A stretch of DNA of 64,000 nt from Pseudomonadota bacterium. GTDB lineage: Bacteria > Pseudomonadota > Gammaproteobacteria > Steroidobacterales > Steroidobacteraceae. The stretch is taken from positions 1,860,001 through 1,924,000 of the forward strand of contig JBBCGI010000001.1 in NCBI GenBank assembly GCA_037200975.1, written 5' to 3'. The translations under genes and the position numbers were made by a program. The notes beneath the pieces were generated by a model. The model was not told the DNA's origin. It saw nothing but the letters and a program-made list of their open reading frames with translations, and ran no database searches. This document shows, in pieces, positions 11,521 through 59,558 of the stretch. The first letter of the stretch is position 1; each line of letters starts with the position of its first letter.

Positions 11521-11724
11521 CGATTCAACTCTTCGGGTGTCGGAAGCGCCTGTGCAACGCCCCGTGTCGCGACGTGCATGAAATCTCGCGCACTCATGGC
11601 GTTGGCTATTTCCTTGTTGTTGGCGTGCGCAGCGCTGTTTGAAACTTAAATCACAAACACAGGAGGGGCGCAAGCAAGCCCCGGCCTGGTTACGAGCTGG
11701 TTATCGAACCGTCTCGAGCGACGA

Positions 11725-11745
11725 GTCCTGCGCGCTTCGCGGGAC
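11725..11745 (-). terminator. Hairpin at the end of the LysR gene
   Basis: GTCCTGCG (11725-11732) and CGCGGGAC (11738-11745) form an 8-bp stem with one G-T pair and a 5-base loop, immediately after the LysR stop codon on the minus strand. There is no T run, so it is only a probable 3' end. Confidence 0.35.
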
Positions 11746-12650
11746 TAGCGCGATGTCCGTGCCTTGAGCAACCAGCGATGCAGCGGAGCACCGTACGGCT
11801 TCTTCAAGGCGTTGCCGCTCCATGAAAGGAAGTACGGCTCCGGCATGGGGAGAGAGTGTGTGAATGGCGCGATCAAGCGGCCGGATTGCAAATCGTTTTC
11901 GACCATCGATCGCTGCGCGAGCACGAAACCTTGCCCATCTACCGCGGCATCGATGGCGGCACGCGACAGCGAGAAACTCAACACGGTGCGGATCTTCCCC
12001 ACCTTCACGTCGAGACTCGAAAACCACTCACGCCATCCGGGAGGCGGCGTGAATACGTGGTTCCATTTGATGTCGAGCAGCGGGAAACGAAGTATGTCGG
12101 CCGGCTCGCGCAGTGGGGTCTTGCGCAGCAGCGATGCGGAACAGACCGGGCACACGACATCGGTGAAAAGCTCGGAATAACGCTGCAGTCGCTGCGATGG
12201 GCGGCCATACGATGCGCGGAAATCGATCTTGTCCTCGTCGAAATCCGGCTCGGACTCCGTTCCGATCAGGTGAATCTCGGCGCGCGGATAACGACTCTGG
12301 AACTCGTACAGGCTCGATCTGACCCAGGTATTCGCCGGGGACGGCAACGCGCTGATGACCAGTGCGGAAGAGTTCTGCGCACGCCGGATATCCTGTTGCG
12401 CGCGCGACAGCGCGGCGAGCGCGGGCGCAATCTGATCGCGATATACGCGCCCACTCGAGGTGAGCCTAACTCCTCGCCCCGAACGTTCCAGCAGCTGTAT
12501 GCCGAGCTGCGTTTCCAGGCGTTGAATGAGCTGGCTGATGGCGCCGGATGACACACGCAGCTCGGCTGCGGCATCGGAAACACTGCCCGTTCGCGCGACC
12601 GCATCGAAGGCGCAAAGGCTTCGCATGGACGGTAACTTGTCAGTAACCAC
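11745..12650 (-). CDS. LysR-family transcriptional regulator divergent from the Rieske oxygenase
   Basis: A 301-residue LysR protein of the GcvA-like branch: winged helix-turn-helix at residues 8-65 (AFDAVARTGSVSDAAAELRV, then GAISQLIQRLETQLGIQLLE) and a substrate-binding domain from about residue 95. The GTG at 12650 has GAGG upstream; an ATG at 12626 is an alternative. It is transcribed away from the oxygenase across a 116-base interval that holds a T-N11-A dyad (12674-12688), so it very probably controls the oxygenase/ferredoxin pair and itself. A fragmentary second copy of its start region lies at about 19680-19816. Confidence 0.9.
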   Translation of the reverse strand: MVTDKLPSMRSLCAFDAVARTGSVSDAAAELRVSSGAISQLIQRLETQLGIQLLERSGRGVRLTSSGRVYRDQIAPALAALSRAQQDIRRAQNSSALVISALPSPANTWVRSSLYEFQSRYPRAEIHLIGTESEPDFDEDKIDFRASYGRPSQRLQRYSELFTDVVCPVCSASLLRKTPLREPADILRFPLLDIKWNHVFTPPPGWREWFSSLDVKVGKIRTVLSFSLSRAAIDAAVDGQGFVLAQRSMVENDLQSGRLIAPFTHSLPMPEPYFLSWSGNALKKPYGAPLHRWLLKARTSR

Positions 12651-12673
12651 GAGACCTCTACGGCGATCGATTC

Positions 12674-12696
12674 TTTAGAAGACCTAAAATAGATTT
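12674..12696. promoter_or_regulatory. LysR-box dyad in the lysR/oxygenase divergent promoter
   Basis: TTTAG (12674-12678), 5 bases, CTAAA (12684-12688) is a perfect dyad fitting the T-N11-A pattern of LysR operators; it is followed by an AT-rich ATAGATTT. The same 23 bases recur without change at 19839-19861 in front of the decayed oxygenase copy, whereas flanking DNA has diverged. Confidence 0.65.
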
Positions 12697-12766
12697 CATG
12701 AAATATCCCTGTCAACGCCCAAACCCATAAAGCAAGCTCACAACACTTGAACGAAGATGGCAGCGA

Positions 12767-13810
12767 ATGAAACACCCTGTACTGCGCAACGCCTGGTACG
12801 CCGCTGAGGCGTCCTCTGTCGTTACGAACAACCTGCTCGGCGTGCGGATGCTGGGCGAGGACGTGCTGCTGTATCGCAAGGAAGACGGCCAGGTGGCAGC
12901 CCTGGAGGACGCTTGTCCGCACCGCAAAGTGCCGCTGTCCATGGGCAGGCGTTGTGGAGACTACGTGGAATGCGGCTATCACGGGCTGACATTCGATGCG
13001 TCCGGGTCGTGCGTGCGTTCTCCCGCCACCGGATCGATCCCGGCACGGGCTCGGGTACGCAGCTATCCGGTTGCCGAACGTTACGGACTGATCTGGGTGT
13101 GGATGGGCAATGCGGAACTGGCAGACCCGCAAACGATCTTTCACGTGGACAACTGGGGCGATCCGGAATGGGGCTGCACTGCGATCGATTCGATGGTGGT
13201 CGCCTGCAACTACCTGTACATCACTGACAATCTGCTCGACCCGACGCACGTTGCCTGGGTACATCGCAGCTCTTTTGGTGATTCGGCCTGTGCGGAAACG
13301 CCCCTCGAGACCGCTGTCCTGGCCAACGGCGTGGCGGTTTCACGCTGGATGCTCGATGTCGAGGTGGCGCCCTTCTACGCGAAGTTCGTCAAATTCACCG
13401 GGCGCGCCGACCGGCAACAATTCTACGAAGTGCGGTTTCCGAGCCATGCGGTCATCCGTGCCGTGTTCGCACCCGCAGGCGCGGGGGGCCCGGAAGGTCG
13501 GGACTGTCCGGACACATTCCGGATGGACAGCTACAACTTCATGACGCCGGTCGATGAACATACGACCCGCTACTTCTGGTTCCAGACGCGCAACTTCGCC
13601 CCTGACGACGAACAGGTTTCCGCGTCGTTTGCCACTTCGGTCCGCGCAGCTTTCGAAGAAGACAAGCGGATCCTGGAAGTGGTGGACAAGGGAATGCAGT
13701 CTCCACGCACGCCGAACATCGACCTGCCGAGCGACGCCGGGCCCACACGATTCCGCCGCCGCCTGGCTGTATTGATTCGCGCGGAAGAAGCCGTTCCATC
13801 AGTCGGATAA
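12767..13810 (+). CDS. Rieske non-heme iron oxygenase, VanA-like oxygenase component
   Basis: The 347-residue protein has an N-terminal Rieske [2Fe-2S] domain with C50-P-H52 and C69-x2-H72, and a C-terminal catalytic domain with mononuclear iron ligands in DNLLDPTHVAWVH (His161, His166). This is the ring-hydroxylating/O-demethylating oxygenase fold of the vanillate demethylase and phthalate dioxygenase type (alpha subunit only). The substrate cannot be read from sequence. A ferredoxin gene follows 10 bases after the stop and should supply electrons; no reductase gene is nearby. Divergent lysR and the dyad at 12674 suggest induction by the substrate. A heavily deleted copy is at 19903-20050. 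Confidence 0.9.
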   Translation: MKHPVLRNAWYAAEASSVVTNNLLGVRMLGEDVLLYRKEDGQVAALEDACPHRKVPLSMGRRCGDYVECGYHGLTFDASGSCVRSPATGSIPARARVRSYPVAERYGLIWVWMGNAELADPQTIFHVDNWGDPEWGCTAIDSMVVACNYLYITDNLLDPTHVAWVHRSSFGDSACAETPLETAVLANGVAVSRWMLDVEVAPFYAKFVKFTGRADRQQFYEVRFPSHAVIRAVFAPAGAGGPEGRDCPDTFRMDSYNFMTPVDEHTTRYFWFQTRNFAPDDEQVSASFATSVRAAFEEDKRILEVVDKGMQSPRTPNIDLPSDAGPTRFRRRLAVLIRAEEAVPSVG

Positions 13811-13820
13811 GAGGACGGCT

Positions 13821-14138
13821 GTGCCAAAACTGATCGTGACCACCCGATCTGCCGAGGTCGTCGAAGTACAAGGCAAGTCGGGATCGTCGTTGATGGAGAT
13901 ACTCCACGGCAACGATTTTGGCGTAGCGGCGATATGCGGCGGGCAATGTTCCTGCGGCACCTGCCATATCTACGTCGCCACAGAGTGGCTGAACAAATTG
14001 CCTGGACGGCATCCGCAGGAGTCGGAACTCCTGCAGGAGCTCGAGTACTACAAAGAGGCGAATTCCCGCCTCAGTTGCCAGATCGAATTCAACGACAATC
14101 TGGACGGACTCGCCCTCACGGTGGCACCGCACGAGTGA
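13821..14138 (+). CDS. [2Fe-2S] ferredoxin, adrenodoxin/plant-type
   Basis: The 105-residue protein carries the ligand pattern C39-x5-C45-x2-C48 and a fourth Cys in RLSCQIEF, characteristic of adrenodoxin-like ferredoxins used by P450s and Rieske oxygenases. Translation starts at GTG 13821 with AAGAGGA upstream. It is 10 bases behind the oxygenase gene and most likely its electron donor. The S15 peptidase gene converges on it from the right with 7 bases between stops. Unit B of the duplication has no copy. Confidence 0.9.
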   Translation: MPKLIVTTRSAEVVEVQGKSGSSLMEILHGNDFGVAAICGGQCSCGTCHIYVATEWLNKLPGRHPQESELLQELEYYKEANSRLSCQIEFNDNLDGLALTVAPHE

Positions 14139-14145
14139 ACCGGGT

Positions 14146-16092
14146 TCACGTCCCGGCGCCGATCACCGGCAGCTCGATGGCGCTGGGCGCCTGCGGCGTG
14201 TGCCAGATACGCTGCGTGGCCTTCACGAAGTCCCCGGGCTTGGCGTACATGATGTTAGGTACGAAGCTCTGCGGATTGCGGTCGTAGAGCGGGAACCAGC
14301 TCGACTGGATCTGCACCATGATGCGGTGGCCCGGCAGGAAGGTATGGCTGACGTTGGGCAGCGGCAGCCGGTACGGCAGCGTCTTGCCCGCGGCCACCGG
14401 GCGGGCCTGCGCAAAATCCTCCCGATAGCGGCCGCGCAGGATGTCGGCCGAAAGCATCTGCTGGTAGCCGCCGAGCTCCGGACGGTTGGGATCCTCGTCG
14501 GGCCACACGTCGATGATCTTCACCACCCAGTCGACGTCGGTGCCGCTGGTGGAGCCGAACAAATGTGCGATGGGCTCACCCGCCACGCGCACCGGCTCGG
14601 CGAGCGGCGCGGTCTCGTAGACGAGCACGTCGGTCCGGGAAGCCGCGTGGCGCTGGTCATCCACCAGCCACTCCCGCCAGGTGGAATTCGTCGCGCTTTT
14701 GCTCAGCGTCGGGCGTTGCCGGTAGGGCACGGGCTTGGCGGGGTCGGAAACGTATTCGTCGTACCGGGCGCCCGCGGCGGCCGGGCGCTCGAAGCTCAAT
14801 TGCCCGCCGGACAGTAGATAGAGCGAGCGCGAAGTTTCCGGGCAGCCCTGCGCGCAGGCGCGCGGCCAGGCATCGTAGCGCTGCCAGCGGTTGACGCCGG
14901 TCTCGTACGCCAGCACGGGCGGCAGCTGCGGCGCGGGCGCATCTTTCAGATAGTGGTCCAGAAAAGGCTGCATCACCTGCCGGCGAAACCATCCGCCGGT
15001 ATCGCCATCGAACCGCAGCAGCCCGAGGCTGCTGCCGTCGCGCAAGCTCTGCCCGTGGGACCACGGACCCATCACCAGGTGCAGCTTCTCGCCGCGCGGG
15101 TCCTTGGAGGCGAGCGCCTTGTACACGGCGGGCGCGCCGTAGATGTCTTCCTGGTCGAAGAGGCACGCGACCAGCAGCGTCGGGACGATCAGCGGTTCAC
15201 GCGCCAGCAGCTTGTCGACCGCCTGTTCCTGCCAGAAGCTGTCGTAGGCGGGATGCTCGACCAGCGCGCGCCAGAAGCCGAACTGCTCCAGTCCGCGCGA
15301 AGCAGCCAGGGCGCCGGCGCTGCCGGCGCGCAGATATTCGTCATAGGTGTCGCGTACGCCGGTCCACCACTTCTCCTGGTTCCTGCGGCTGGATTCGTGC
15401 TCGTAGATGAAATCCAGCGAACTGGCCTGGCGGAAGGCACCGTAGTGAAACCAGTCATCACCCATCCAGCCGTCGATCATGGGGGCGACGGGCACCGCCG
15501 CCTTGAGCGCCGGATGCGGGCGAACGGTAGATAGGATGGTGGTGAAGCCGCCGTAGGAGACGCCGATGGTGGCGACGCGGCCGTTGGATTCGGGGACGTT
15601 CTTCACCAGCCAGTCGATGGTGTCCCAGGTGTCGGTGGCATGGTCGACGTCGGTCGGGTTGAGCGGTCCCCGCAGCGGACGGTTCATCACATAGTCGCCT
15701 TCGGAGCCGTATCTCCCGCGTACGTCCTGCGCGACGATGATGTAGCCGGCGGCGACGGCGGTATCGAACATCTGGCCGACCACCGAGGCGAGGTTCGGGC
15801 TCTCGGTGCGCGAGACGGTCCTGGACGCGCCGTAGGGCGTGCGATTCATCAGCATGGGCGCGTTGCGGGCGCCCTTGGGGACGACAATGAAGGTCTTCAG
15901 CTTCACGCCGTCGCGCATGGGGATCATTTCCTCGCGCCTGACGTAGTCGAAGGTTTCGGTATGGGGCTTGAAGGTCGCGGGAATGTCGCTGGGCAGAGCG
16001 CCTGCGGGCGGCGCGCCGTGCAGCGGCGCGCAACACAGAAAAACCAGCGCCGCACCCAGCAGTGCCGAGCCGAAACCCGGCAACGGCTTCAT
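14146..16092 (-). CDS. Secreted CocE/NonD-type hydrolase (S15, X-Pro dipeptidyl-peptidase family)
   Basis: The 648-residue protein has a signal peptide (GSALLGAALVFLCCAPLHG) and an alpha/beta-hydrolase domain with nucleophile Ser179 in TIGVSYGGF, the oxyanion region AQDVRGRYGSEG, and a C-terminal jelly-roll domain (TSGTDVDWVVKIIDVWPDE, then LPGHRIMVQIQSSWFPLYDR) typical of CocE/X-Pro peptidases. These enzymes remove X-Pro dipeptides or hydrolyse esters and amides such as glutaryl amides; which applies is unknown. The ATG overlaps the stop of the upstream DUF1684 gene (TGATG), so it belongs to the TonB receptor-DUF1684 transcript. In unit B the same junction leads into a different gene. Confidence 0.85.
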   Translation of the reverse strand: MKPLPGFGSALLGAALVFLCCAPLHGAPPAGALPSDIPATFKPHTETFDYVRREEMIPMRDGVKLKTFIVVPKGARNAPMLMNRTPYGASRTVSRTESPNLASVVGQMFDTAVAAGYIIVAQDVRGRYGSEGDYVMNRPLRGPLNPTDVDHATDTWDTIDWLVKNVPESNGRVATIGVSYGGFTTILSTVRPHPALKAAVPVAPMIDGWMGDDWFHYGAFRQASSLDFIYEHESSRRNQEKWWTGVRDTYDEYLRAGSAGALAASRGLEQFGFWRALVEHPAYDSFWQEQAVDKLLAREPLIVPTLLVACLFDQEDIYGAPAVYKALASKDPRGEKLHLVMGPWSHGQSLRDGSSLGLLRFDGDTGGWFRRQVMQPFLDHYLKDAPAPQLPPVLAYETGVNRWQRYDAWPRACAQGCPETSRSLYLLSGGQLSFERPAAAGARYDEYVSDPAKPVPYRQRPTLSKSATNSTWREWLVDDQRHAASRTDVLVYETAPLAEPVRVAGEPIAHLFGSTSGTDVDWVVKIIDVWPDEDPNRPELGGYQQMLSADILRGRYREDFAQARPVAAGKTLPYRLPLPNVSHTFLPGHRIMVQIQSSWFPLYDRNPQSFVPNIMYAKPGDFVKATQRIWHTPQAPSAIELPVIGAGT

Positions 16093-17042
16093 CACAGATG
16101 GCTGCCCGCTTTCGCGTAGGTCTTTTCTCCGGCCGTCACCGCGAGATCGAGGCGATTTTCCGGCGGCGGCAACAGGCAGGTACCGAACTCGGTGAAGGCG
16201 CACGGTGGCGTATAGGTCCGGTTGAAGTCGATCACGACTTCGCCGTTGGCATCCGGCGGGGGCGTGAAGAGGAATCGGCCGGAAGGATAACTACCCTTGC
16301 CATTGGTGCGGTCCGCGAACATCAACGACAGCCCGCGCGCGGAGTCTCCGATCACCTCGAGTCGGAATTGCTTGCCACCGCGCTCGAACTCCACGACGCC
16401 CGGATTCGCTTGGTCATTCAATCCACCCAGGATGTCCAGCACGGGCACCACGCGTCCCGATTCATGTGGCACGAACTTTCCCTTGATGCGCCAGCCCGCA
16501 TCGATGGGCCAGTAGTCGAGGCCAGCGAAGTTGCGGCGCCCCGGGGCATCCGCATGATGCACGCGCAGTGCGCGACGCCCGCCACTCAAGATCAAGCTGA
16601 TCGAACCCTTGCCGCCGTCGAAGGCTACGGTCGTCGCAGGGGTGCCCTTGTCGCGCTTCTTCAATTCCACGGGCCCGTTCGGCGCCGCTCCATCGACGAC
16701 CAGCGGCACGCCCGGCTCGGCAATGAATAACGCATGGCCGTCCTTCTCCTCGATGACGCCGACACGCGCCGGACCGATGGCGAGGCGGAAATCGCTGCCC
16801 GCCGCGCTGCCCACGGAGTATCGGCCCGGCTCCAGCCAATACATGCCGATGATCGCCGTCCAGCCGTCAGGCTTGAGCAGACCCTCGACACGCTTCTTGC
16901 GGTAGTCCTCGATCTCCTGGACCAGCGCCGCATCCTGCGCAGAACTCTCCGCGCGATTCGCGCCGGTGGGCGCCGCAGTACTCCAACCGTTCAGCGACAT
17001 CCATGTCGCACCCACCACCGCCAGCGTGGTCAACCTCTTCAT
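16092..17042 (-). CDS. DUF1684 family exported protein, copy A
   Basis: 316 residues with a signal peptide (TTLAVVGATWMSLNGWSTAA). The body carries DUF1684 landmarks: EIEDYRKKRVEGLLKPDGW, YWLEPGRYSVGSA, and the C-terminal DFNRTYTPPCAFTEFGTC and LPPPENRLDLAVTAGEKTY. The ATG at 17042 has GGGGAG seven bases upstream. The biochemical role of DUF1684 is not established. It lies 21 bases after the TonB receptor and overlaps the S15 peptidase by TGATG. Copy B at 24358-25308 has exactly the same length and is nearly identical in large blocks, so the pair is a recent duplicate. Confidence 0.85.
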   Translation of the reverse strand: MKRLTTLAVVGATWMSLNGWSTAAPTGANRAESSAQDAALVQEIEDYRKKRVEGLLKPDGWTAIIGMYWLEPGRYSVGSAAGSDFRLAIGPARVGVIEEKDGHALFIAEPGVPLVVDGAAPNGPVELKKRDKGTPATTVAFDGGKGSISLILSGGRRALRVHHADAPGRRNFAGLDYWPIDAGWRIKGKFVPHESGRVVPVLDILGGLNDQANPGVVEFERGGKQFRLEVIGDSARGLSLMFADRTNGKGSYPSGRFLFTPPPDANGEVVIDFNRTYTPPCAFTEFGTCLLPPPENRLDLAVTAGEKTYAKAGSHL

Positions 17043-17063
17043 GACTGAACTCCCCACACCCGC

Positions 17064-19229
17064 TTAGAAATCGATACGCGCGTTGACCGCCAACGTTCGC
17101 GACGCACCCGGCGAGAACGCGTTGAACGCGCCGTCCCAGTAGCGACGATCCAGCAGGTTGCGTACTTCGGCATTGAAGATGACGTTCCGGCCAGCCAGCT
17201 TCGTGCCCCAATTGCCGCCGATGTTGGCCACCGCGTAGCCCGGTGAGTACACGCTCAGATCGCCGGCCTGGATGTGGTTGATGACCTTGTCCCCAAGGTA
17301 CTTGACGTCGGCATGCAGACTCAGGCCAGCCAGCGCAGGCACGTCGTAGGTGATATCGAACGCGCCACTCAAACGCGCGGCACCCGGCAGACGACGATCC
17401 AGCAGCCAGTCGTTGACGCCCTTGGTGTACTTGGCATCGAGCAGGACCGCCGAGCTGCCCACGACCCAGCTCTCCCCGAGACGAACACGAGCACCCAGCT
17501 CGACACCGTCATAGAGCTGCTCGCCCCCTTGTACCAGGTAGTTAGCACCGTCCACGTAGGTGGCACCTTTGGACAAGCGGAAGACCGCCGCCGAGAGCGC
17601 CCAGGAGGTCTTCTCGACTTTGACGCCCAGCTCGTACTGATCGCTCTCGATGGGATTCAGCTGCTCGCCCGCGTTCACGTAGGTAACACCCACGGTCGGT
17701 CCCTGCTGCAGGGACTGCACATAGCTGACATAGGCGGTGACGCTTTCCTGCGGCTTGTAGATCAGCGCCAGCGTCGGAGTCGTGACGTCCTTCTCGTAGC
17801 GGCTGGTCCGCAGGCCGGTGAAAATGTTGAACGACTGCTGCAGATACCGCGTGAAACGCAGACCTCCCAACACCGAAAACTTCTCGGTGAGGCCCACCGT
17901 ATCGCTCAGGTAGGCGGATTTCTCCTGGTACTGGCTGGCCTTGATGCCGTCGATCCGTGTGGCGCCCACGTTGGGCCACTCTTCGGGCGAATAGTCGTAA
18001 AGATTCCCGCCGGGCTGGTCCACCGCCGTGTAGTTGGTCGTGGCGTAGTTGAGGATCAGATCCTGCCAGCTCACGCCGGCCGTCACGTGGTGGGAGACCG
18101 GCCCGGTGTCGAAGCGACCCTGCACCAGCGCGCGCGCGAAGTCGTAATCGAACACGTCATAGTAATCGTTCAGCCGGTTTACGTAGGTGCCGCCCTCGTC
18201 CCGCAGGCGGACCGTCTCGTACGGAAAGCGGTAGTTAGTATACGTCTTGCCGTAGTTGACGTTCAGATCCCAGCCGTCGCTGATCCGCCACTCCAGTCCG
18301 GTGGTGCCGGAAGCGAACTCGGTGTCGCTGAACACGTCGTCCGACGCCAGCGTGCGGGTGCTGTCGACCGGTTTCGGCAAACGATCGTTGCGATACACGG
18401 TCGTGTCGAGGACGAACAAGGGGTCGGGCCGGTCGATCTTGCTGTCCTGGTACAACAGGTCGGTGACCCATTTCAGATTCTCGGTGATGCGCACTTCGAA
18501 ATTGGCGGTCGCGGCCTTGCGATCCACGTCGGAGCCGGAGTAAGTCTCACCCTGCTCGTTCACCAGATTGATGCGGTAACCAAATACGCCTTCGCCGACG
18601 CGGCCGCCCACATCGACGTGCTGCGAGAACAGCTGATCCGAACGGTAGCCGACGCTCAAGTTCAACAACGGCTGGTCGGTCGGTCGCTTGGTGAGGTAGT
18701 TGACGATGCCGCCTGGCGCGCCGACACCGTAGAGGAAGCCGCTCGAACCCTTCAGCAACTGGATTTCCTCCACCGCTTCGAGCGGCAGCGTCGCCCCATA
18801 GTAGGTAAGGGGCAGGCCGTTGACCCGCACACTGTTCACCCAGTCGAGCGACAAGCCGCGCACGGAGATTCGCTGCGCATACATGTTGTAGTCCGTGCCG
18901 CCTTCGCGTGCGACGCTGGCGTCCTTCGCAAACACCGCGGGCAGGGAAGCGGACTGATGCCGCTCGATGTCCTCCTTGCCAATCGCATACACGGAAAACG
19001 GCGTGTCGCGCAGCGTGCGCGTGCCGAGCGCGCTGGCGCCCGAATCGATCACGCGTTTGGCGCTGACCAGAACTTCGTCCAGGTCGTCACGATTGGACGC
19101 GGTTTGCGCGTGGGCGGAAAAGCTGATCGCCGCCGCCACCGCGAGTGTCAGGGCACGGACATGCGGTCCGCGGTTGCGCGACGTGCTCCGTCGCGGGGCC
19201 GACGGGGCGGCGTTGAACTCGAGCTTCAT
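17064..19229 (-). CDS. TonB-dependent outer-membrane receptor, copy A
   Basis: 721 residues from ATG 19229 (GGAG upstream), the start shared with copy B. A signal peptide (ALTLAVAAAISFSAHAQ) precedes a plug domain (RTLRDTPFSVYAIGKEDIE, VRGLSLDWVNSVRVNGLP, KGSSGFLYGVGAPGGIVNYL) and a 22-strand barrel ending in aromatic Phe (AVNARIDF). The plug is of the siderophore receptor type (FhuA/FpvA-like), but similar receptors import peptides and other large nutrients; the peptidase-rich operon favours a peptide-like ligand. It heads the transcript receptor-DUF1684-S15 peptidase. Copy B (25337-27502) is the same length; the main differences are in barrel loops (for example SPEEWPNVGATRIDGIKA versus SPETWANVYDGTPPHSKG), as expected for altered ligand specificity. 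Confidence 0.93.
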   Translation of the reverse strand: MKLEFNAAPSAPRRSTSRNRGPHVRALTLAVAAAISFSAHAQTASNRDDLDEVLVSAKRVIDSGASALGTRTLRDTPFSVYAIGKEDIERHQSASLPAVFAKDASVAREGGTDYNMYAQRISVRGLSLDWVNSVRVNGLPLTYYGATLPLEAVEEIQLLKGSSGFLYGVGAPGGIVNYLTKRPTDQPLLNLSVGYRSDQLFSQHVDVGGRVGEGVFGYRINLVNEQGETYSGSDVDRKAATANFEVRITENLKWVTDLLYQDSKIDRPDPLFVLDTTVYRNDRLPKPVDSTRTLASDDVFSDTEFASGTTGLEWRISDGWDLNVNYGKTYTNYRFPYETVRLRDEGGTYVNRLNDYYDVFDYDFARALVQGRFDTGPVSHHVTAGVSWQDLILNYATTNYTAVDQPGGNLYDYSPEEWPNVGATRIDGIKASQYQEKSAYLSDTVGLTEKFSVLGGLRFTRYLQQSFNIFTGLRTSRYEKDVTTPTLALIYKPQESVTAYVSYVQSLQQGPTVGVTYVNAGEQLNPIESDQYELGVKVEKTSWALSAAVFRLSKGATYVDGANYLVQGGEQLYDGVELGARVRLGESWVVGSSAVLLDAKYTKGVNDWLLDRRLPGAARLSGAFDITYDVPALAGLSLHADVKYLGDKVINHIQAGDLSVYSPGYAVANIGGNWGTKLAGRNVIFNAEVRNLLDRRYWDGAFNAFSPGASRTLAVNARIDF

Positions 19230-19567
19230 GGTTTCACTCCGGTAACTTGCAATGCTGTTCATGAGAGGGGTTATTAGTCGCCGATACTGATGCCCAGCGA
19301 CAGGATTCCAGCGATCGTGGAAAACCGGGTTCCTGTGAGCTCTTCATCTGGTCGTCGTTCCAGGTCGGGGGGCGCAATCTAGCGTCGGGCACACGCATCT
19401 CGATACTCACTTTTCGGCGAAGCCTGATAGCGAAATTGATGGTCGAATGACGCGTTTTCCAATACTTGTGAGCACCCCTTCGATCGATGCTCGAAGGAGC
19501 TTGTTAGTGTCTCAACTAACAAAGTTTCAGTACGCGATGCCTTCTCGTTCCCTGTCGCCGCGCTGGA
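19230..19567. other. Upstream region of TonB receptor copy A with two dyads
   Basis: No gene is seen. It should hold the promoter of the receptor operon. Two inverted repeats stand next to each other: CCTTCGA/TCGAAGG (19477-19483 and 19491-19497) and TTGTTAG/CTAACAA (19501-19507 and 19516-19522, 8-base spacer). Either could be an operator. The region ends where similarity to the 3' flank of lysR (unit B) begins. Confidence 0.5.
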
Positions 19568-19816
19568 CTGTTGTTAGCGTGCGCGGCGGTTGTTGAAACT
19601 TAGAACACAGGGAAAAGACCGTCGCAAGCCGGTTCCAAAGCTGTCACCGACGCGTATCGAACGATGGACGCGGGGGAGATTTCAGGCGTTGATTGAGCCG
19701 GTGATGGCGCCGGAGAACACACCGGGCCCGGATGCGGCATCAGAAATACCGCCCGTTCGCGCGACGGCATCGGAGGCGGAAAGGCTGCGCATCGACGGTA
19801 ACGGGTTCGTAACCAC
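19568..19816 (-). pseudogene. Remnant of a second lysR copy with its 3' flank
   Basis: 19680-19816 aligns with the start of the intact LysR gene (12510-12650): both contain GCGTTGA, TGATGGCGCCGGA, CCCGTTCGCGCGAC and the GTAACCAC start region. 19568-19630 aligns with the flank beyond the intact gene's stop (11614-11680), including GAAACTTA and CGCAAGCC. Almost all of the substrate-binding domain is therefore deleted, and what remains is not an open frame. Confidence 0.75.
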
Positions 19817-19838
19817 GACAGCTCAGCGGCAACAACTG

Positions 19839-19861
19839 TTTAGAAGACCTAAAATAGATTT
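19839..19861. promoter_or_regulatory. Second copy of the LysR-box dyad, identical to 12674-12696
   Basis: TTTAG (19839-19843), 5 bases, CTAAA (19849-19853) plus eight further bases are unchanged from the copy in front of the intact oxygenase. The genes on both sides have decayed, so the site either remains under selection as a binding site (decoy or promoter) or the decay is very recent. Confidence 0.6.
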
Positions 19862-19902
19862 TAGGAAATCTTCCGGCCAACGTCCGGACCGATGGGCAGC
19901 GA

Positions 19903-20050
19903 ATGAAACGCATGTGGTTCTGCGCAACGTGCCGCTGTCCATGGGCAAGCGTCGCGGAGACTTTGTGGAATGCGCCTGTCACGCGCTCACGTTCGACGCA
20001 TCCGGCTCCTCGCAGCGCTGATTCGCGCGGACGAAGCGGTTCGATCCGGC
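19903..20050 (+). pseudogene. Remnant of a second Rieske oxygenase gene
   Basis: The segment begins like the intact gene (GGCAGCGAATGAAAC around 19893-19908) but runs out of frame almost at once. In the shifted frame it reads VVLRN, then VPLSMGKRRGDFVECACHAL and TFDASGS, matching residues 5-8 and 55-81 of the intact protein, and finally LIRADEAV, matching its last residues. So two internal deletions (about residues 9-54 and 82-335) and a frameshift are present. Only the second Rieske ligand pair (C-x2-H) survives. No ferredoxin copy follows. Confidence 0.8.
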
Positions 20051-20061
20051 GGTTGGAAATG

Positions 20062-21165
20062 TCAGCGCGGGCGCGTGACGCTGCCGGCAGATCGCGCCGC
20101 CGGTGCACGGCGACTCTCGAAGATCGTGCGCGCCTCGAGCAAGGGCTGCGGATCGACCAGCTTCGCGAAATCGAGTGGGCGTGCGAGGAATCCACCGGCG
20201 AAGAGCTCATCGCCCTTGGCCCGCAGCAACTCCAGCCGCAGCGGTGACAGCGTCAGGTCCAGTTGCCGATGGATGCGCGATGAATACGCATCCGTGACGA
20301 AATCCACCGGCAGACCCGTGTCCTGAGCAATGATCTGCAGCGCGTCGCGTTCGTGGTTGCGCGCCCATTCGTCCGCCTCGAGAAGCCGCGCCAGCCAGCG
20401 GGCCACGATGTCCGGATGCGAATCGACCAGGCTGCCGGTGGCCGTCAACACCAGCGGCTGGGCCGCATGTACGTCCCCCGTTTCCTCGGGCGCCGTGAGA
20501 TCGATCAGTACCACGGGGCCCAGGAAAGCTTTCACCACCGCGCCCATCGCAGCGTCGCTGTAGATGACGTCCACCTGGCCACGTAACAACGCGTAGATCT
20601 CCTCACGTTGCACCGCGAACTGACTGCGTGCACCCCAGAGCGACCGTCCGGCATCCTGACCGGTGACGGCATCGTCGATGTACGAGCGTTCGATATCTAT
20701 CTCGACGAACTCGACGTCGCCAGGCTCGAGACCGGCTCTGCGCAAGGCGGCGCGATATCCGGACATGACGAGTGCGCGCCACCAGTCGACGCTGTCGCGA
20801 GTCCGCCGTGGAACGCTGAGCCGCTTTCCGCGCAGGTCCTCCGGCCGTTTCAATCCGGAATCCTGCAGCGCCAGCACCGCGGCCGTGCGATCCGGCCAGC
20901 TCAAACCCAGGATCCGCACATCGACATCCCGCGAGGCCGAGACGAGCGGCGGTACGTATCCGCCAAACCGAAAGGCGTTGGCCTGGGATTGCGTGTAGTG
21001 AGACAGATGGACGCTGCGCTCGGTGGCCGAGGCCAGGGAACGGACCTCGATGCCGTCGGCCAAAAACTCCTCGTTGAGCCAGCCCTGCTTGATGGCGACC
21101 GAAGCGGCGGTAGGCGCCGGACAACGTGTGTACCAAAGCGTGTCCAGGGGCGGTTTCAGGGCCAT
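20062..21165 (-). CDS. DszB-like sulfinate desulfinase homologue (NMT1/SsuA fold, cytoplasmic)
   Basis: 367 residues without a signal peptide, which argues against a periplasmic binding protein although the fold is of that type. The N-terminus, DTLWYTRCPAP then SVHLSHYTQ and FRFGGYVPPL, matches the arrangement I recall for DszB (2'-hydroxybiphenyl-2-sulfinate desulfinase): catalytic Cys in YSNCPVP, His in TVHF and Arg/Gly in RFGGEIPPL. The corresponding residues here are Cys15, His53, Arg66 and Gly69. Similar blocks recur later (EPGDVEFVEI, DEWARNHERDA). DszB cleaves an aryl sulfinate to phenol and sulfite; the substrate here is unknown. It is the last gene of the receptor B transcript, 14 bases after the M14 peptidase, and its 3' end abuts the oxygenase remnant. 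Confidence 0.65.
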   Translation of the reverse strand: MALKPPLDTLWYTRCPAPTAASVAIKQGWLNEEFLADGIEVRSLASATERSVHLSHYTQSQANAFRFGGYVPPLVSASRDVDVRILGLSWPDRTAAVLALQDSGLKRPEDLRGKRLSVPRRTRDSVDWWRALVMSGYRAALRRAGLEPGDVEFVEIDIERSYIDDAVTGQDAGRSLWGARSQFAVQREEIYALLRGQVDVIYSDAAMGAVVKAFLGPVVLIDLTAPEETGDVHAAQPLVLTATGSLVDSHPDIVARWLARLLEADEWARNHERDALQIIAQDTGLPVDFVTDAYSSRIHRQLDLTLSPLRLELLRAKGDELFAGGFLARPLDFAKLVDPQPLLEARTIFESRRAPAARSAGSVTRPR

Positions 21166-21179
21166 GCGAACGTGTCCCG

Positions 21180-23717
21180 CTATTTCTGCGCCGGGGAGAG
21201 CAAGGCATTCAGCAGGAACTTGTAGGTTCCGTAGGTCTGCGCCCGGTGGTGATCGCGAAAACCGATCAGCACCACGCGGCCTTGGCCCTGCTTCACTTCC
21301 AGCACGGCTGCCCGGCCGCTGATGGGTTTCTCGCTGCCTTTCATCGCTCCTTGAATCAGGACGTGATCGCGTGGATACCGCGCGACGATCCGGGTCAGCG
21401 ATTCGCCGGTGTCTGGCACCTGCGGAGTGAAAGCGGCGCTTTGAATGAACATCGCGGTGGCTTCGTCCGGCATGCCGTAGCCCAGCGGCTGTGTGTTGTC
21501 GACTTCGATGCGCACCAGTGAAGACGGTATCCAGAAATCATCGGTCTTCAGTCCCTCGAGCGCGTTGCGAACCGGCAAACCAAACTCTTTGGTAAAGAGC
21601 ATGCCCGCGCTGTCGACCGCCACGATCGTCCCGCCCTTGGCAGCGAACGCCTTCAGTGCGGCAACGCCTGACGCGCCGATGCCGCCCTGCACCTCCGGTG
21701 GATATTCGCTGTCGGCCGAATTGCCGGACTTGATGCGGTCCGCAGATTCATTGGCGAACAGGATGACGGAGAACTGTTGCGTCAGATCGCCCTTCAGGTC
21801 GGCGTTGTGCAAAGTCGTGAACTCGAACCCGAGGTCATCGAGAACGTAGCGCGCCCAGCCCTCGTCCATGTTCGGGCGCCACGATTGATAGACACCGATA
21901 CGCGGCTTGGATAGCGGCTTGATGTCGAGGTTGCGGATACTGTCGAGCCCGTAGGCTTCGACGCGCCACTTGTCGAGCAGCGCGGGCAGGGCTTGTTTGA
22001 CCTGGGCGGTGGACTCGACGATGAAACTGCCCGCCGGCAGCGTGGTCCCGCCGACCTCGAGCGCACCGCTCGAACGATACACCGCGTTTTTAGCGTTGAG
22101 CAGTGCGGCGGCGACCGCGTACGAAGCATTCGCGCGCGTATCGAACACCACATAAGACGTCGCTGGGACGGACACCGACGGCACGGGAATGTCGACCAGC
22201 TTCTTGAATTCCGCCTTGAACGGTTTCTCGATCTGGCTGTACTCGACGCCCATCTGCAGCGGCAGCGACCACGACGCGTCGTCGCGCAGCACGCTGGGAA
22301 CCGCATCGTCGGGGTAGTTCCTGTCGCGGCTCAGCTGGTTCACGACGTAGGGCCGATAGGGTTGCGCGGAGAAGACGATGAAATCGCCGGCGGCGAAGGA
22401 CTTTCCGTCCGCAACGAAAGGCGCCGTCGCCTGCTGGATTTCCGCGCCGCCGAACTTGAGCACTTCGATCAGCTTGAGCGTGGTCGGATTGTCGTGCTGC
22501 GCGGCCGGAATGACGAAGGCATAAGGATCGCCGGGATGTTCGCCTTCGACCGCGTCGCGTCCCATCTGGTAGTAGTTGTAGAGCCAGTCGGATTTTTGCG
22601 CCGACGCCGTCTCGATCAGGCTCATGGAAGTCTTGCCCGCGTAGTCGACCACATCGCGCAGGCGCCACCAGCCGCCCGGCCACGGGTCCGGGAAGTGCAA
22701 GCTCTTGCGGGTGTAGTAAGGCTCGAGTTCGGCGGGATCGATGTGCACCGGGGTCGCGATGTTGGTCCAGGCAATCTCGGTGAATACGGCGGTCGTGTTG
22801 CGCACCGTCGCGCCGCAGGTCAGCGTGCCCTTCCACCATGCCGACGCGAATATCTGGTCATGGACCGCGCCTTTCATGCCGGCTGCCTGCAGATCGTAGG
22901 TCATGCGCGAGCCGATCAGGCCGATGCCACGGAAGACGAGCGGGTGCACGTTCTGGTCGGCGGGCTCCATGTAGGGCGGCACGAATATGCGCGCACCCGT
23001 TGCGCCCATCTGATGCGGATCGTCCATGATCTGCGGAAACCAGTCGTGCCACAGCACCTGGTCGATGGCGCGCGTCTCGGGCAGGTTGTACATGATGCCG
23101 TCGCGATTGTTGTCGTGGCCGGCGTAGTGGTGGTACAGCCAGGGGATGTCGCCGCCCTCGTACTTCGTGCCGAGGTACTTCTTGTACCAGTCGGAGATCA
23201 TGATGAGCCCGTCCGGGTTGGCGACGGGAACCAGCAACACGATCACATCGTCCAGGACCTTGGCCGCGTCGAACGGCGTATCGCCGACGGCCAATCTGTA
23301 CGCGGTCTCCATGGAGGCCTGCGACGAGCCCACTTCCGAGGCATGCAGGCCGTGCGTGATGAGCACGATGACCTTGCCTTCCTGGCTGAGTTTCCGCGCA
23401 TCCGCAGCCGTCAGCCCGCGCGGATCACTGAGACGTTTCGTGATCGCCCGGTAGCGATCGACATTCGGCATGTTCTTTTCCGAAGTCACGATCGCCATGA
23501 GCATCGGCACGCCGAGCGTGCTCTTGCCGATCTCCACCACCGACACGCGCTTCGACTCCGCGGCCAGCTTGGTGAAATAGGCGTTGATCTGGCGGGTATC
23601 GGCAAGTTTCCGATCCGCCCCGACCTTGTGTCCGAGAAACGCCTCGGGCGAGGTCTGCGCTTGAGCCAGACCCGATACCAACGACGCGAGCGCAACGATC
23701 AGCCTTGCCGGATTCAT
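21180..23717 (-). CDS. Exported M14-family zinc carboxypeptidase
   Basis: About 845 residues; ATG 23717 or the GTG three bases earlier, with GAGGAG upstream. A signal peptide (ARLIVALASLVSGLAQAQ) is followed by the M14 peptidase domain with zinc ligands in ITHGLHASEVG (H-x2-E) and a later His in YHHYAGHDNNRDG, and the catalytic Glu region FTEIAW. The C-terminal half contains a ThuA/glutamine-amidotransferase-like segment (KPRIGVYQSWRPNMDEGWA, KGGTIVAVDSAGML) as in other large M14 proteins of this type. It would trim C-terminal residues from peptides in the periplasm. Genes before and after are a TlpA-like lipoprotein (92 bases upstream) and the DszB-like protein. Confidence 0.88.
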   Translation of the reverse strand: MNPARLIVALASLVSGLAQAQTSPEAFLGHKVGADRKLADTRQINAYFTKLAAESKRVSVVEIGKSTLGVPMLMAIVTSEKNMPNVDRYRAITKRLSDPRGLTAADARKLSQEGKVIVLITHGLHASEVGSSQASMETAYRLAVGDTPFDAAKVLDDVIVLLVPVANPDGLIMISDWYKKYLGTKYEGGDIPWLYHHYAGHDNNRDGIMYNLPETRAIDQVLWHDWFPQIMDDPHQMGATGARIFVPPYMEPADQNVHPLVFRGIGLIGSRMTYDLQAAGMKGAVHDQIFASAWWKGTLTCGATVRNTTAVFTEIAWTNIATPVHIDPAELEPYYTRKSLHFPDPWPGGWWRLRDVVDYAGKTSMSLIETASAQKSDWLYNYYQMGRDAVEGEHPGDPYAFVIPAAQHDNPTTLKLIEVLKFGGAEIQQATAPFVADGKSFAAGDFIVFSAQPYRPYVVNQLSRDRNYPDDAVPSVLRDDASWSLPLQMGVEYSQIEKPFKAEFKKLVDIPVPSVSVPATSYVVFDTRANASYAVAAALLNAKNAVYRSSGALEVGGTTLPAGSFIVESTAQVKQALPALLDKWRVEAYGLDSIRNLDIKPLSKPRIGVYQSWRPNMDEGWARYVLDDLGFEFTTLHNADLKGDLTQQFSVILFANESADRIKSGNSADSEYPPEVQGGIGASGVAALKAFAAKGGTIVAVDSAGMLFTKEFGLPVRNALEGLKTDDFWIPSSLVRIEVDNTQPLGYGMPDEATAMFIQSAAFTPQVPDTGESLTRIVARYPRDHVLIQGAMKGSEKPISGRAAVLEVKQGQGRVVLIGFRDHHRAQTYGTYKFLLNALLSPAQK

Positions 23718-23809
23718 CACGAAACTATCTCCTCGAAGTGTGGGGCGCCGTCCGAAACCATGAGCGCATCAGTAGATAGGCGCGAGGCGCTCGACGGTGC
23801 ATGAAAGGG

Positions 23810-24358
23810 TCAACTCGCCGCGATCGCCCGTTCTATGTCCGCCCGCGTGACCGGGCCCAGGAATTCGCGCTTCACGTTTCCCTGCGGATCGATGAGATAC
23901 GTCATGGGCAGCCCGCGGGGAGCGGCGATTCCCGGCGGCATCTCGAAGGGATCGACGATGGCGATCGGGTAGGAAACGGGCCGCCTGGCGAGCGCCTTCT
24001 GCAGTGCCTCCGGCTCTATCTGCTCGTAGGCAAGGCCGACGACATTCACGTGGTCGTGCGCGTCGTGCAACGCGGAGAGCTCCGGCATCTCTTTCACGCA
24101 CGGCGCGCACCAGGTCGCCCAGAAGTTCACCACCACCCAGCTCCCCCGTTGAGAAGTCAGATCGTAGACGCCGCCACCGATGAGCGGCAGGCGCAAGGCC
24201 GGAAACTCCGTGGCGCTTTTCGGAACGGCGGCCGGGGACTCGACCGCCTTCGCCGGCGCAGCCTGGGCAGTGACTGACTCGGGACTCTGGCCACAGCCCG
24301 CCACGAACAGCGTGAGCAGGCAGCCCGTGAAACACCAACGCCGTGATCGAGACGTCAT
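23810..24358 (-). CDS. TlpA-type thioredoxin-like lipoprotein
   Basis: 182 residues from the ATG at 24358, which overlaps the DUF1684 stop as TGATG. A lipobox (LLTLFVAGC) anchors it in a membrane, and a thioredoxin fold follows with active site WATWCAPC, the cis-Pro region GLPMTYLID and the TlpA-like insert. It probably acts as a periplasmic disulfide reductase or thiol donor. Its place in a receptor/carboxypeptidase/desulfinase transcript suggests it protects or recycles a thiol in one of these, which is inference. Unit A has an S15 peptidase at the equivalent position. Confidence 0.85.
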
Positions 24359-25308
24359 CACAGATGCGTTGCGCCCGAGTACGTCTTTTCTCCGGCCGTC
24401 ACTGCGAGATCGAGGCGATTCTCCGGCGGCGGCAACAGGCAGGTACCGAACTCGGTGAAAGCGCAGGGTGGCGTGTAGGTGCGGTTGAAGTCGATCACGA
24501 CCTCGCCGTTGGCGTCCGGCAGACCTGTGTAGAGGAATCGGCCGGAAGGATAACTACCCTTGCCATTGGTGCGGTCGGCGAACATCAATGACAGCCCGCG
24601 AGCAGCGTCTCCTATCACCTCGAGGCGGAATGTCTTGCCATTGCGCTCGAACTCCACGACGCCCGGATTCGCCTGGTCATTCAATCCACCCAGGATGTCC
24701 AGCACGGGCACCATGCGTCCCGATTCATGTGGCAAAAACTTTCCCTTGATGCGCCAGCCGGCATCGATGGGATAGTAGTCGAGGCCTTTGAAGTTCAGAC
24801 GCGCCGGCGCGTCGGCGTGGCGTACGCGCAGCGCGCGACGCCCGCCACTCACGATCAAGCTGAGCGAACCCTTCCCCCCGTCGTAAGTCACGTTCGTCGC
24901 AGGAGTGCCCTTGCCGTAGCGCTTCAGTTCCACGGGCCCGGTCGGCGCCGCTCCGTCGACGACCACCGGCACACCCGGCTCGGCAGTGAACAGCGCGCGG
25001 CCATCCTTCTCCTCGACGACGCCAAGGCGCGCCGGACCGATGGCGAGACGGATGTCGCTGCCCGCCGCGCTGCCCACGGAGTATCGGCCCGGTTCCAGCC
25101 ATTGCATGCCGATGGTCGCGGTCCAGCCGTCAGGCTTGAGCAGACCCTCGACGCGCTTCTTGCGGTAGTCCTCGATCTCCTGGACCAGCGAGGCATCCTG
25201 CACGGAATTCTCCGCGCGGCTCGCGCCCGTGGACGCCGCATTGCTCCAACCGGTGAGCGACATCCATGTCATACCCACCACCGCCAGCGCGATCGGCAAC
25301 CTCTTCAT
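24358..25308 (-). CDS. DUF1684 family exported protein, copy B
   Basis: 316 residues, identical in length to copy A at 16092-17042 and nearly the same through EIEDYRKKRVEGLLKPDGW, PVLDILGGLNDQANPGVVEF, FADRTNGKGSYPSGRFL and the C-terminal PPPENRLDLAVTAGEKTY. Signal peptide LALAVVGMTWMSLTGWSNAA. It follows the TonB receptor by 28 bases. Function unknown; the retention of DUF1684 directly behind the receptor in both units suggests the two proteins work together on the imported substrate. Confidence 0.85.
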   Translation of the reverse strand: MKRLPIALAVVGMTWMSLTGWSNAASTGASRAENSVQDASLVQEIEDYRKKRVEGLLKPDGWTATIGMQWLEPGRYSVGSAAGSDIRLAIGPARLGVVEEKDGRALFTAEPGVPVVVDGAAPTGPVELKRYGKGTPATNVTYDGGKGSLSLIVSGGRRALRVRHADAPARLNFKGLDYYPIDAGWRIKGKFLPHESGRMVPVLDILGGLNDQANPGVVEFERNGKTFRLEVIGDAARGLSLMFADRTNGKGSYPSGRFLYTGLPDANGEVVIDFNRTYTPPCAFTEFGTCLLPPPENRLDLAVTAGEKTYSGATHL

Positions 25309-25336
25309 GACTTCGCTCCGCACGTGATGCACCCGC

Positions 25337-27502
25337 TTAGAAGTCGACGCGGGCGTTGACTGCCACCGTGCGCGGCGCGCCCGGCGAGAACGCGCTGGTC
25401 GCACCGTCCCAGTAGCGACGATCCAGCAGGTTGCGCACTTCGGCATTGAAGGCCACGTCCCGGCCCGCCACCTTCGTGCGCCAGTTGCCGCCGAAGTTCG
25501 CCACCGCGTAACCCGGTGAGTACACGCTCAGGTCACCGGCCTGGATGTGATTGACGACCTTGTCCCCAAGGTATTTGACGTCGGCGTGCACGCTCAGACC
25601 TGCCAGCGCTGGCACGTCGTAGTTGATATCGAAAGCGCCGCTCACTTTCGAGGCACCCGGCAGACGACGATCCAGCAGCCAGTCGTTGACGCCCTTGGTG
25701 TACTTGGCATCGAGCACGACTACCGAGGTGCCCACCGTCCAGCTCTCGCCGAGACGAACACGACCACCAAGCTCGACACCGTCATACAGCTGCTCGCCGC
25801 CCTGTACGGTGTAGTTAGCGCTGTTCACGTAGGTCGCGCCCTTGGACAAGCGGAAGACCGCCGCCGAAAGGGCCCAGGTGGTCTTCTCGACTTTGACGCC
25901 CAGCTCGTACTGATCGCTCTCGATGGGATTCAGCAGCTCGCCCGCGTTCACGTAGGAAGTGCCCACGATGGGACCCTGCTGCAGGGACTGCACGTAGCTC
26001 AGATAGGAGGTGACGCTTTCCTGCGGCTTGTAGATCAGCGCCAGCGTCGGAGTCGTGACGTCTTTCTCGTAGACGCTGGTGCGCGCACCAGTGTTCACGT
26101 TGTACGACTCCTGCAGATACTGCGTGAAACGCAGGCCCGCCAAGAACGACAACTTCTCGGTGAGGCCCACCGTGTCGCTCAGGTAGGCGGATTTCTCCAG
26201 GTAGTGGCTGCCTTTGCTGTGCGGCGGAGTGCCGTCATACACATTGGCCCAGGTTTCGGGCGAGTAGTCGTAAAGATTCCCACCAGGCTGGTCCACCGGC
26301 GTGTAGTTAGTCGTGCCGTATGTGATGATCAGATCCTGCCAGCTCACGCCACCCGTCAGGTGGTGAGAGACCGGTCCGGTGTCGAAGTGACCCTGCACCA
26401 GCGCGCGCGCGAAGTCGTAATTGAACACGTCGTAGTAGTCGGCCAGACGGTTTACGTAGGTGCCGCCCTGGTCACGCAGTCGGAACGTCTCGTACGGAAA
26501 GCGGTACTCGGTGTAGGTCTTGCCGTAGTTGACGTTCAGATCCCAGCCGTCGCTGATCCTCCACTCGAGTCCAGTGGTACCCGACGCGAACTCGGTGTTG
26601 CTGAACGATTGGTCCGAGGCCAGTCTGCGGGTGGCGTCGACAGGATCCGGCAAACGTTCGTCGCGGTACACGGTGGTGTCGAGGACGAACAGCGGCTCGG
26701 GCCGGGCGATCTGGCTGTCCTGGTACAGCAGGTCGGTGACCCATTTCAGATTGTCGGTGATGGGCACTTCGAAGTTGGCGGTCGCGGCCTTGCGATCCAC
26801 GTCGGAGTCGGCGTAAGTATTGCCTTGCTCGTTCACCAGATTGATGCGGTAACCAAACCCGCCGTCGCCAACGCGGCCACCCACATCGAGGTGCTGCGAG
26901 AACAGCTGATCCGAACGGTAGCCGACACTGAAGTTCAAGAGCGGCTGATCGGTCGGTCGCTTGGTGAGGTAGTTGACGATGCCGCCTGGCGCACCGACCC
27001 CGTAGAGAAAGCCGCTCGAGCCCTTCAGCAGCTGGACTTCCTCGACCGACTCCAGCGGCAGCGTCGCTCCATAATAGGTAAGGGGCAGGCCGTTGACCCG
27101 CACACTGTTCACCCAGTCGAGCGACAAACCGCGTACGGCGATTCGCTGCGCGTACATGTTGTAGTCCGTGCCACCTTCACGCGCCACGCTGGCATCCTTC
27201 GAGAACACCGCAGCGAGGGAAGCGGCCTGATGCTTCTCGATGTCTTCGCTGCTGATCGCAGTCACGGAAAACGGCGTGTCGCGCAGCGTGCGCGTGCCGA
27301 GCGCGCTGGCGCCCGAATCGATCACGCGCTTGGCGCTGACCAGCACTTCGGTCATTTCGGTGTTAGTGGCCGCGGTTTGCGCATGGGCGGAAAAGCTGAT
27401 GGCAGCCGCCACTCCGAGCGTCAGGGCGCGGACGTGAAGTCCGCTGTTATGCGACCTGTTGCGCCGCAGGGCTGACTGAACGGTGTCGAACTCGAACTCC
27501 AT
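25337..27502 (-). CDS. TonB-dependent outer-membrane receptor, copy B
   Basis: 721 residues from ATG 27502 (MEFEFDTVQSALRRN), same length as copy A. Signal peptide ALTLGVAAAISFSAHAQ, plug with RTLRDTPFSVTAISSEDIE and KGSSGFLYGVGAPGGIVNYL, barrel ending AVNARVDF. Changes against copy A concentrate in external loops and a few positions near the plug start. It heads the transcript receptor-DUF1684-TlpA-M14-desulfinase, that is, a different set of processing enzymes from copy A. Confidence 0.93.
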   Translation of the reverse strand: MEFEFDTVQSALRRNRSHNSGLHVRALTLGVAAAISFSAHAQTAATNTEMTEVLVSAKRVIDSGASALGTRTLRDTPFSVTAISSEDIEKHQAASLAAVFSKDASVAREGGTDYNMYAQRIAVRGLSLDWVNSVRVNGLPLTYYGATLPLESVEEVQLLKGSSGFLYGVGAPGGIVNYLTKRPTDQPLLNFSVGYRSDQLFSQHLDVGGRVGDGGFGYRINLVNEQGNTYADSDVDRKAATANFEVPITDNLKWVTDLLYQDSQIARPEPLFVLDTTVYRDERLPDPVDATRRLASDQSFSNTEFASGTTGLEWRISDGWDLNVNYGKTYTEYRFPYETFRLRDQGGTYVNRLADYYDVFNYDFARALVQGHFDTGPVSHHLTGGVSWQDLIITYGTTNYTPVDQPGGNLYDYSPETWANVYDGTPPHSKGSHYLEKSAYLSDTVGLTEKLSFLAGLRFTQYLQESYNVNTGARTSVYEKDVTTPTLALIYKPQESVTSYLSYVQSLQQGPIVGTSYVNAGELLNPIESDQYELGVKVEKTTWALSAAVFRLSKGATYVNSANYTVQGGEQLYDGVELGGRVRLGESWTVGTSVVVLDAKYTKGVNDWLLDRRLPGASKVSGAFDINYDVPALAGLSVHADVKYLGDKVVNHIQAGDLSVYSPGYAVANFGGNWRTKVAGRDVAFNAEVRNLLDRRYWDGATSAFSPGAPRTVAVNARVDF

Positions 27503-41015: not shown

Positions 41016-41047
41016 GGGGCGATCACCTGTCTGCGGGTTTACGGTGG

Positions 41048-59550: not shown

Positions 59551-59558
59551 GATCTGGA

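Follow-up and report, generated by a model that had tools for sequence, protein, structure and literature searches.

Two adjoining TonB receptor-DUF1684 units with different partner enzymes in a Steroidobacteraceae genome: a likely tandem duplication with unequal fates

We describe a locus, in a 64-kb stretch of a Steroidobacteraceae genome (contig JBBCGI010000001.1; hereafter the window, within which all positions are counted), where a TonB-dependent receptor gene and a DUF1684 gene lie twice, in a left unit, A, and a right unit, B. The host genome is one contig of 4.65 Mb. Self-comparison revealed a single long direct repeat, 16089-19249 against 24355-27522, with 87.1% DNA identity over 3175 nt, which holds the DUF1684 gene and the receptor gene of each unit. 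The homology stretches from the DUF1684 stop codon (16089/24355) to a point shortly before the receptor start (19249/27522), and the start-to-start spacing is 8263-8273. The units are thus collinear and equally oriented, head to tail, as an initial annotation of this DNA had proposed; the exactly equal protein lengths reported there also hold, both receptors having 721 residues (84% identical) and both DUF1684 proteins 316 (86% identical).

In unit A, an intact gene for a LysR-type regulator (11745-12650, minus strand; Pfam HTH_1 and LysR_substrate, nearest NCBIfam model GcvA, below cut-off) is separated by an operator-like dyad, TTTAG-N5-CTAAA (12674-12688), from the sole intact copy of a Rieske oxygenase gene (12767-13810, plus strand; VanA_C domain by Pfam) and a [2Fe-2S] ferredoxin gene (13821-14138, plus strand; Fer2, E 5.2e-7). 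Convergent with these, and all on the minus strand, lie genes for a predicted exported homologue of alpha-amino acid ester hydrolases (14146-16092; S15/CocE; 1mpx at E 1e-226, 4pf1 at E 1.3e-292), for DUF1684 copy A (16092-17042; PF07920) and for receptor A (17064-19229; Pfam match, TIGR01783 above cut-off). The hydrolase gene is the cassette of this unit, and it overlaps the DUF1684 stop codon. The lysR, oxygenase and ferredoxin genes had been recognised before; what had been called an S15 peptidase is the ester hydrolase homologue. To the left lies an NhaC-type Na+/H+ antiporter gene (10114-11520, minus strand; TIGR00931 above cut-off for a longer frame, 10114-11673).

Unit B opens with relics, followed on the minus strand by a DszB-like gene (20062-21165; NMT1 domain, 2de2 at E 2.8e-13), a gene for a predicted exported M14 zinc carboxypeptidase-like protein (21180-23720; PF00246), a gene for a TlpA-like thioredoxin-fold protein (AhpC-TSA/Redoxin), DUF1684 copy B (24358-25308; PF07920) and receptor B (25337-27502; FemA/BauA-like by sequence). 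The first three had been noted initially, and the TlpA-like frame is 23810-24361. Judged by eye, the hydrolase, DUF1684 and M14 proteins have signal-peptide-like starts, the TlpA-like protein has a lipobox-like start, and the DszB-like protein has neither. No traces of TlpA, M14 or DszB-like genes were found in unit A at E ≤ 0.1.

The relics (19569-20052) match 11615-13806 in five short collinear pieces whose order is kept: 12513-12728 against 19680-19893 (80.6%, 194 bits), 12923-13008 against 19923-20008 (83.7%, 93.3 bits), 11615-11655 against 19569-19609 (82.9%, 43.7 bits), 13773-13806 against 20019-20052 (85.3%, 40.1 bits) and 12759-12791 against 19895-19929 (80%, 30.1 bits). The best score among 300 dinucleotide shuffles of 19569-20062 was 31.0 bits, so the first four pieces rule out chance similarity and bear out the shredded recurrence first described at 19568-20050; the fifth is not significant alone. 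With 11614-13790 as query (E ≤ 0.001), the own genome yielded just the two larger pieces in addition to the query itself. The relics retain parts of the nhaC-lysR spacer, the lysR start, the dyad with its 15 bases unchanged (19839-19853, found by a genome pattern scan) and fragments of the oxygenase gene; the remainder of both genes is gone. The decay of lysR and the oxygenase gene claimed for unit B therefore left remains; the loss of ferredoxin we infer, no remnant of it or of the hydrolase gene being detected in unit B at E ≤ 0.1. Between the units lies a 319-bp spacer (19250-19568) that is single-copy in the genome. A repeated element at the junction was rejected on the lack of another copy there, insertion-sequence libraries not having been searched.

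The two receptors have diverged unequally. Two receptor peptides, run once against a genome collection, retrieved three loci: L036, a 3.7-kb contig from a gammaproteobacterial metagenome-assembled genome (MAG); L037, from a Steroidobacter sp. MAG (genome G672); and a 25% match in Lysobacter, which we left out of comparisons. Among the four sequences, with branch changes polarised using L036 as reference, receptors A and B carry nearly the same number of silent codon changes (45 and 44), with 44 replacements in A and 21 in B (Fisher p 0.047); the DUF1684 branches are alike (12 and 11 replacements, 15 and 19 silent changes). Residues specific to one copy number 31 in A and 13 in B (p 0.010), and 16 of the 31 fall within residues 382-473 (17811-18086, minus strand; counterpart in receptor B, 26084-26359). 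Such clustering arose in none of 20000 permutations with a 92-residue window, in 4 of 20000 at 45 residues and in 2 of 20000 at 60 residues (7 among variable sites); none of the 27 residues specific to L036 lies in this stretch. Replacement and silent changes in receptor A number 16 and 3 inside the stretch against 28 and 42 elsewhere (p 0.0007), those in receptor B 2 and 7 against 19 and 37. The few silent changes (3) make import of a foreign segment into receptor A unlikely. Nine of the 16 residues lie within 393-431, between the short turns DTGPVS and LTEKLS, in a segment that aligned with AWFGY of FhuA, whose Phe391 we take to touch ferrichrome; going by these turns and this alignment, residues 393-431 are probably an outward loop. 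Within four sequences, one receptor copy thus shows the excess of clustered replacements, at an unchanged silent rate, that would be expected of a neofunctionalised copy.

The two relatives indicate which gene content is older. Both have the receptor-DUF1684-TlpA order of unit B, their TlpA-like proteins being 79% (L036) and 75% (L037) identical to that of unit B, and the start-stop overlap with DUF1684 is common to all. In L037 the genes continue with M14 (87%), an M28 peptidase, which has a relative in the window at 37265-38758, and nhaC (83%); the ABC transporter genes that flank unit B on its right also adjoin the unit in L037. Since L036 and L037 share the DUF1684-TlpA order and L037 also has M14, the content of unit B appears to be the older one. 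The initial idea of duplication followed by specialisation thus keeps its signs of receptor divergence, and the extra genes of unit B cease to look like a new specialisation. The DNA upstream of nhaC in L037 resembles the lysR start and operator (78% to B, E 1.7e-16), with the dyad surviving as a relic, and gives a weak second match into the lysR end (68%, E 4e-5); the middle of lysR is missing. Because the lysR break lies at 12614 in L037 and at 12513 in unit B (unit A numbering), lysR was probably lost in two separate events.

The DszB-like gene has its own link to the oxygenase. On another contig of G672 (L093), homologues of the oxygenase (62%) and the DszB-like protein (65%) are encoded about 1.1 kb apart, and as the two are linked in two genomes, an ancestral unit containing both, and thus a DszB-like gene ancestral to this locus, is plausible but no more. 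The L093 gene between them has no Pfam match and has a homologue (46%) at about 29736-30842 of the window. The protein encoded at 29736-30842 is itself without Pfam or solved-structure match, and its homologues adjoin oxygenase genes in L093 (46%) and L147 (31%); an M29/NicX-like enzyme is conceivable, though none of the searches backs it.

A history that embraces the repeat, the relics, the different cassettes and the clustered receptor changes, and that we consider rather probable, is one of duplication and unequal fates, with a tandem duplication as the likely event. The ancestor would have had an uptake operon (TonB receptor, DUF1684, TlpA-like, M14 and probably DszB-like genes) opposite a Rieske oxygenase arm under LysR control, next to nhaC, and this locus would have come to lie twice, head to tail. 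In copy B the oxygenase arm would then have decayed, the uptake operon and the receptor staying in their older form. Copy A would have retained a working oxygenase arm and exchanged everything past the DUF1684 stop codon for the exported hydrolase homologue, its receptor being altered in a stretch made up of the probable outward loop and its flanks, so that the two receptors would differ in ligand. In uptake, then, it is B that has stayed conservative and A that was retooled, with the roles swapped in the oxygenase arm.

Several results weigh against this history, and some of them favour another, that the second unit is an already diverged relative that horizontal transfer brought in and recombination placed beside the first; we rate this as somewhat unlikely. 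By identity, as initially supposed, the receptors are closest to each other (A-B 84.1% in the four-sequence comparison, B-L036 83.4%, A-L036 79.1%). The receptor tree, however, prefers B with L036 (approximately unbiased (AU) test, 0.80) over A with B (0.25) and A with L036 (0.04), and does so without residues 382-473 (0.90, 0.11 and 0.004) and in the residues before 382 (0.95, 0.08 and 0.05), A with B being rejected in none of the three; the residues after 473 give 0.47, 0.59 and 0.05, and third positions prefer no topology. Silent distances (NG86) from L036 to A (0.36 in the receptor, 0.47 in DUF1684) and to B (0.35 and 0.47) are near those between the copies (0.31 and 0.29). The unit is also patchy, the best receptor match being 29% over 689 residues among 58 other genomes from the order, which include 35 from the family and 3 from the genus of the host, and 1 of 369 genomes of the class, the own one, matching at 1e-60; G+C is 0.60 at 10001-14000 against about 0.65 around it. 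Against transfer stand the DUF1684 tree, which groups A with B (AU 0.999), the A-B silent distance, which is the smallest in both genes, and the left end of unit B, which repeats the nhaC-lysR spacer, the expected remnant of in-place copying. The receptor without the stretch combined with DUF1684 gives 0.75 for A with B and 0.26 for B with L036. Silent distances to L037 spread threefold between genes (receptor 1.0-1.2, DUF1684 0.54-0.63, M14 0.49, M28 0.46, nhaC 0.60, ABC-type genes 1.0-1.7), which suggests that the island underwent recombination. Further adverse points are that the stretch and the window widths were picked after the positions had been seen, that 16 of the 98 residues specific to L037 also fall in the stretch, that the structure prediction for receptor B has a mean predicted local distance difference test (pLDDT) score of 25, the loop being placed from sequence only, and that the DszB-like gene does not adjoin M14 in L037.

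A last adverse point is the ratio of 16 replacement to 3 silent changes in the stretch of receptor A, which equals the unconstrained expectation (p 0.59), so that selection for change and local relaxation are indistinguishable there. Receptor A might accordingly be decaying or relaxed rather than specialised, its changes marking lost constraint. We find this unlikely, since a decaying gene would not gather its changes in 92 of the 721 residues, the frame is open from end to end, receptor A is outside the stretch constrained like B (28:42 against 19:37), and the operon is joined in frame-overlap with a new exported hydrolase. It is very improbable that unit B instead holds the new content, having gained its TlpA, M14 and DszB-like genes after the duplication. 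Unit A is indeed the conservative copy for the lysR-oxygenase arm, of which B and L037 show only relics; the TlpA gene of L036 and L037, with its equal start-stop overlap at the equivalent place, and the M14 gene of L037 contradict such a gain unless three lineages acquired both in one place. The case is weaker for the DszB-like gene.

Under the duplication history, each receptor would import its own ligand, and exported partner enzymes would trim it in the periplasm; the partners would be in A the predicted ester hydrolase and in B the carboxypeptidase-like enzyme and the TlpA-like lipoprotein, with DUF1684 serving both receptor systems. An amino-acid-like part of the ligand may then be oxidised in the cytoplasm by the single oxygenase, which possibly serves both units. 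A bolder version seems to us doubtful: in one copy the periplasmic hydrolase would have changed in step with the specificity of the receptor, both copies would feed the shared LysR-controlled oxygenase, and the company of that oxygenase would mark a pathway, as yet undescribed, for amino-acid conjugates that may be histidine-like or contain sulfur.

The surroundings of oxygenase homologues bear on the substrate. We viewed eight oxygenase neighbourhoods from the 28 other genomes of the order that match at 1e-80, with not all frames scanned. TonB receptors were present in 7 of them, LysR and aromatic amino acid lyase homologues in 5 each (the lyases being 25-67% identical to those of the window), and a DszB-like gene in a single one. 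Across genomes the company of the oxygenase includes TonB receptors, aromatic amino acid lyases and peptidases or esterases, with DszB-like genes in two genomes. The lyase neighbours, together with urocanase and histidine ammonia-lyase-like genes at 39351-42586 of the window, suggest amino-acid-like substrates and nothing further. Breakdown of a histidine analogue or of ovothiol was considered and dropped, the neighbours being no more than suggestive and literature listings giving nothing on point. In the genome of L036, another contig (L098, 73-6524) has an nhaC homologue (84%) and a histidine ammonia-lyase-like gene (64%) separated by about 3.5 kb, in the company of amidohydrolase genes.

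The dyad occurs at two genome sites (12674 and 19839) and the reversed control pattern at three; given no surplus over this control, the two sites are simply homologous. The dyad recurs between lysR and the oxygenase gene elsewhere. Of 5 plasmid loci viewed, 4 have it there, Paraburkholderia accounting for two of these, and so does 1 of 8 chromosomal loci, a set in which L093 is truncated by the end of its contig. More exact dyads lie in L145 (10037 and 11123), L116 (6115) and L120 (5113); in L145 the dyad stands before the oxygenase gene and again before an aromatic amino acid lyase gene.

Beyond these relatives the unit is seldom found. A search of 59 genomes around G672 gave three receptor matches at 1e-60, one in G672 and, at 36% and 31% identity, two in others. 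Of three congeners searched by DNA, one matches the hydrolase gene (48-49% amino acid identity) and 53 nt of the DUF1684/TlpA region, and two have no matches to the unit at 1e-5. We rejected TonB-DUF1684-TlpA as a general module, since 19 DUF1684 loci, viewed with flanks of about 1.5 kb and drawn from the 76 other genomes that matched, contained a TlpA relative in a single case and a relative of either of the two query receptors in none. Another TonB receptor-DUF1684-TlpA-like triple does lie in the own genome (L097, 8602-13035; C1 near 3.19 Mb), with a much larger receptor of 983 residues, a DUF1684 protein about 43-48% and a TlpA-like protein 46% identical to those of the window. DszB-like matches at 1e-40 were found in 7 of 398 genomes of the phylum, own included, the rest being 30-36% identical; at 1e-30, 2 of 376 genomes of the order match, own included, the other falling in that same range, and 82 plasmid records match at 1e-20, at up to 37%.

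Elsewhere in the window, a 61-base near-perfect palindrome (59558-59618; 98% self-complementary) with the look of a strong hairpin lies left of a gene end at 59624, and direct copies of about 290 bases, 61770-62059 and 62212-62501, are 67% identical.

Operon duplication or addition with unequal fates is a process already known; this case is unusually testable. The origin of new ligands for TonB receptors is mostly argued from distant paralogues. At the locus described here, adjoining copies differ by about 0.3 silent changes per site, the older arrangement survives in relatives, changes of the receptor cluster in a single stretch, and the copy with the changed receptor is also the one whose partner enzyme differs, so that tests of ligand change become feasible. 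A recurrent neighbourhood of oxygenase, LysR, TonB receptor and lyase genes is indicated as well. Judged by titles and the starts of abstracts, a literature search (DUF1684, tandem duplication or neofunctionalization of TonB receptors, ester hydrolases with TonB, Steroidobacter) returned no description of this locus; DUF1684 led to work on a TrmB regulator, and Steroidobacter with TonB and Rieske to work on bile acids and cholesterol.

Receptor-plus-hydrolase TonB uptake loci are a general notion rather than a curated family; the units share with them a TonB receptor in a co-transcription layout with exported hydrolases, and differ in having two adjoining copies, different hydrolases and one shared oxygenase arm. 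The receptors are predicted to be of the TonB-dependent siderophore type, with homology to FemA (E 5.3e-57), BauA (E 1e-41) and FhuA over plug and barrel; unlike in those systems, the partners here are peptidase- or esterase-like, and no siderophore genes were noticed beside the receptors. The hydrolase homologue aligns over its full length with alpha-amino acid ester hydrolase (1mpx, 2b4k) and with the S15/CocE protein 4pf1, keeping GxSYxG, DGWMGDD, DQED and GPWxHxQ, which we take to be motifs around the active site; its activity is a prediction, and it differs in sitting in a TonB-DUF1684 operon. The DszB-like protein is a distant homologue of 2'-hydroxybiphenyl-2-sulfinate desulfinase (DszB), aligning over 331 query residues, with the Cys and the Arg of RFGG, presumably active-site residues together with a His, in register; His candidates are 53 and 56, one of them aligned with 2de2, and the Cys, the Arg and both His are kept in the L093 homologue. 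No dszA or dszC was noticed in the unit, where no search aimed at them was made. The oxygenase shares Rieske and VanA_C domains with DdmC, its best solved relative (E 8.4e-45), and with other VanA-type oxygenases, from which it differs in its neighbours.

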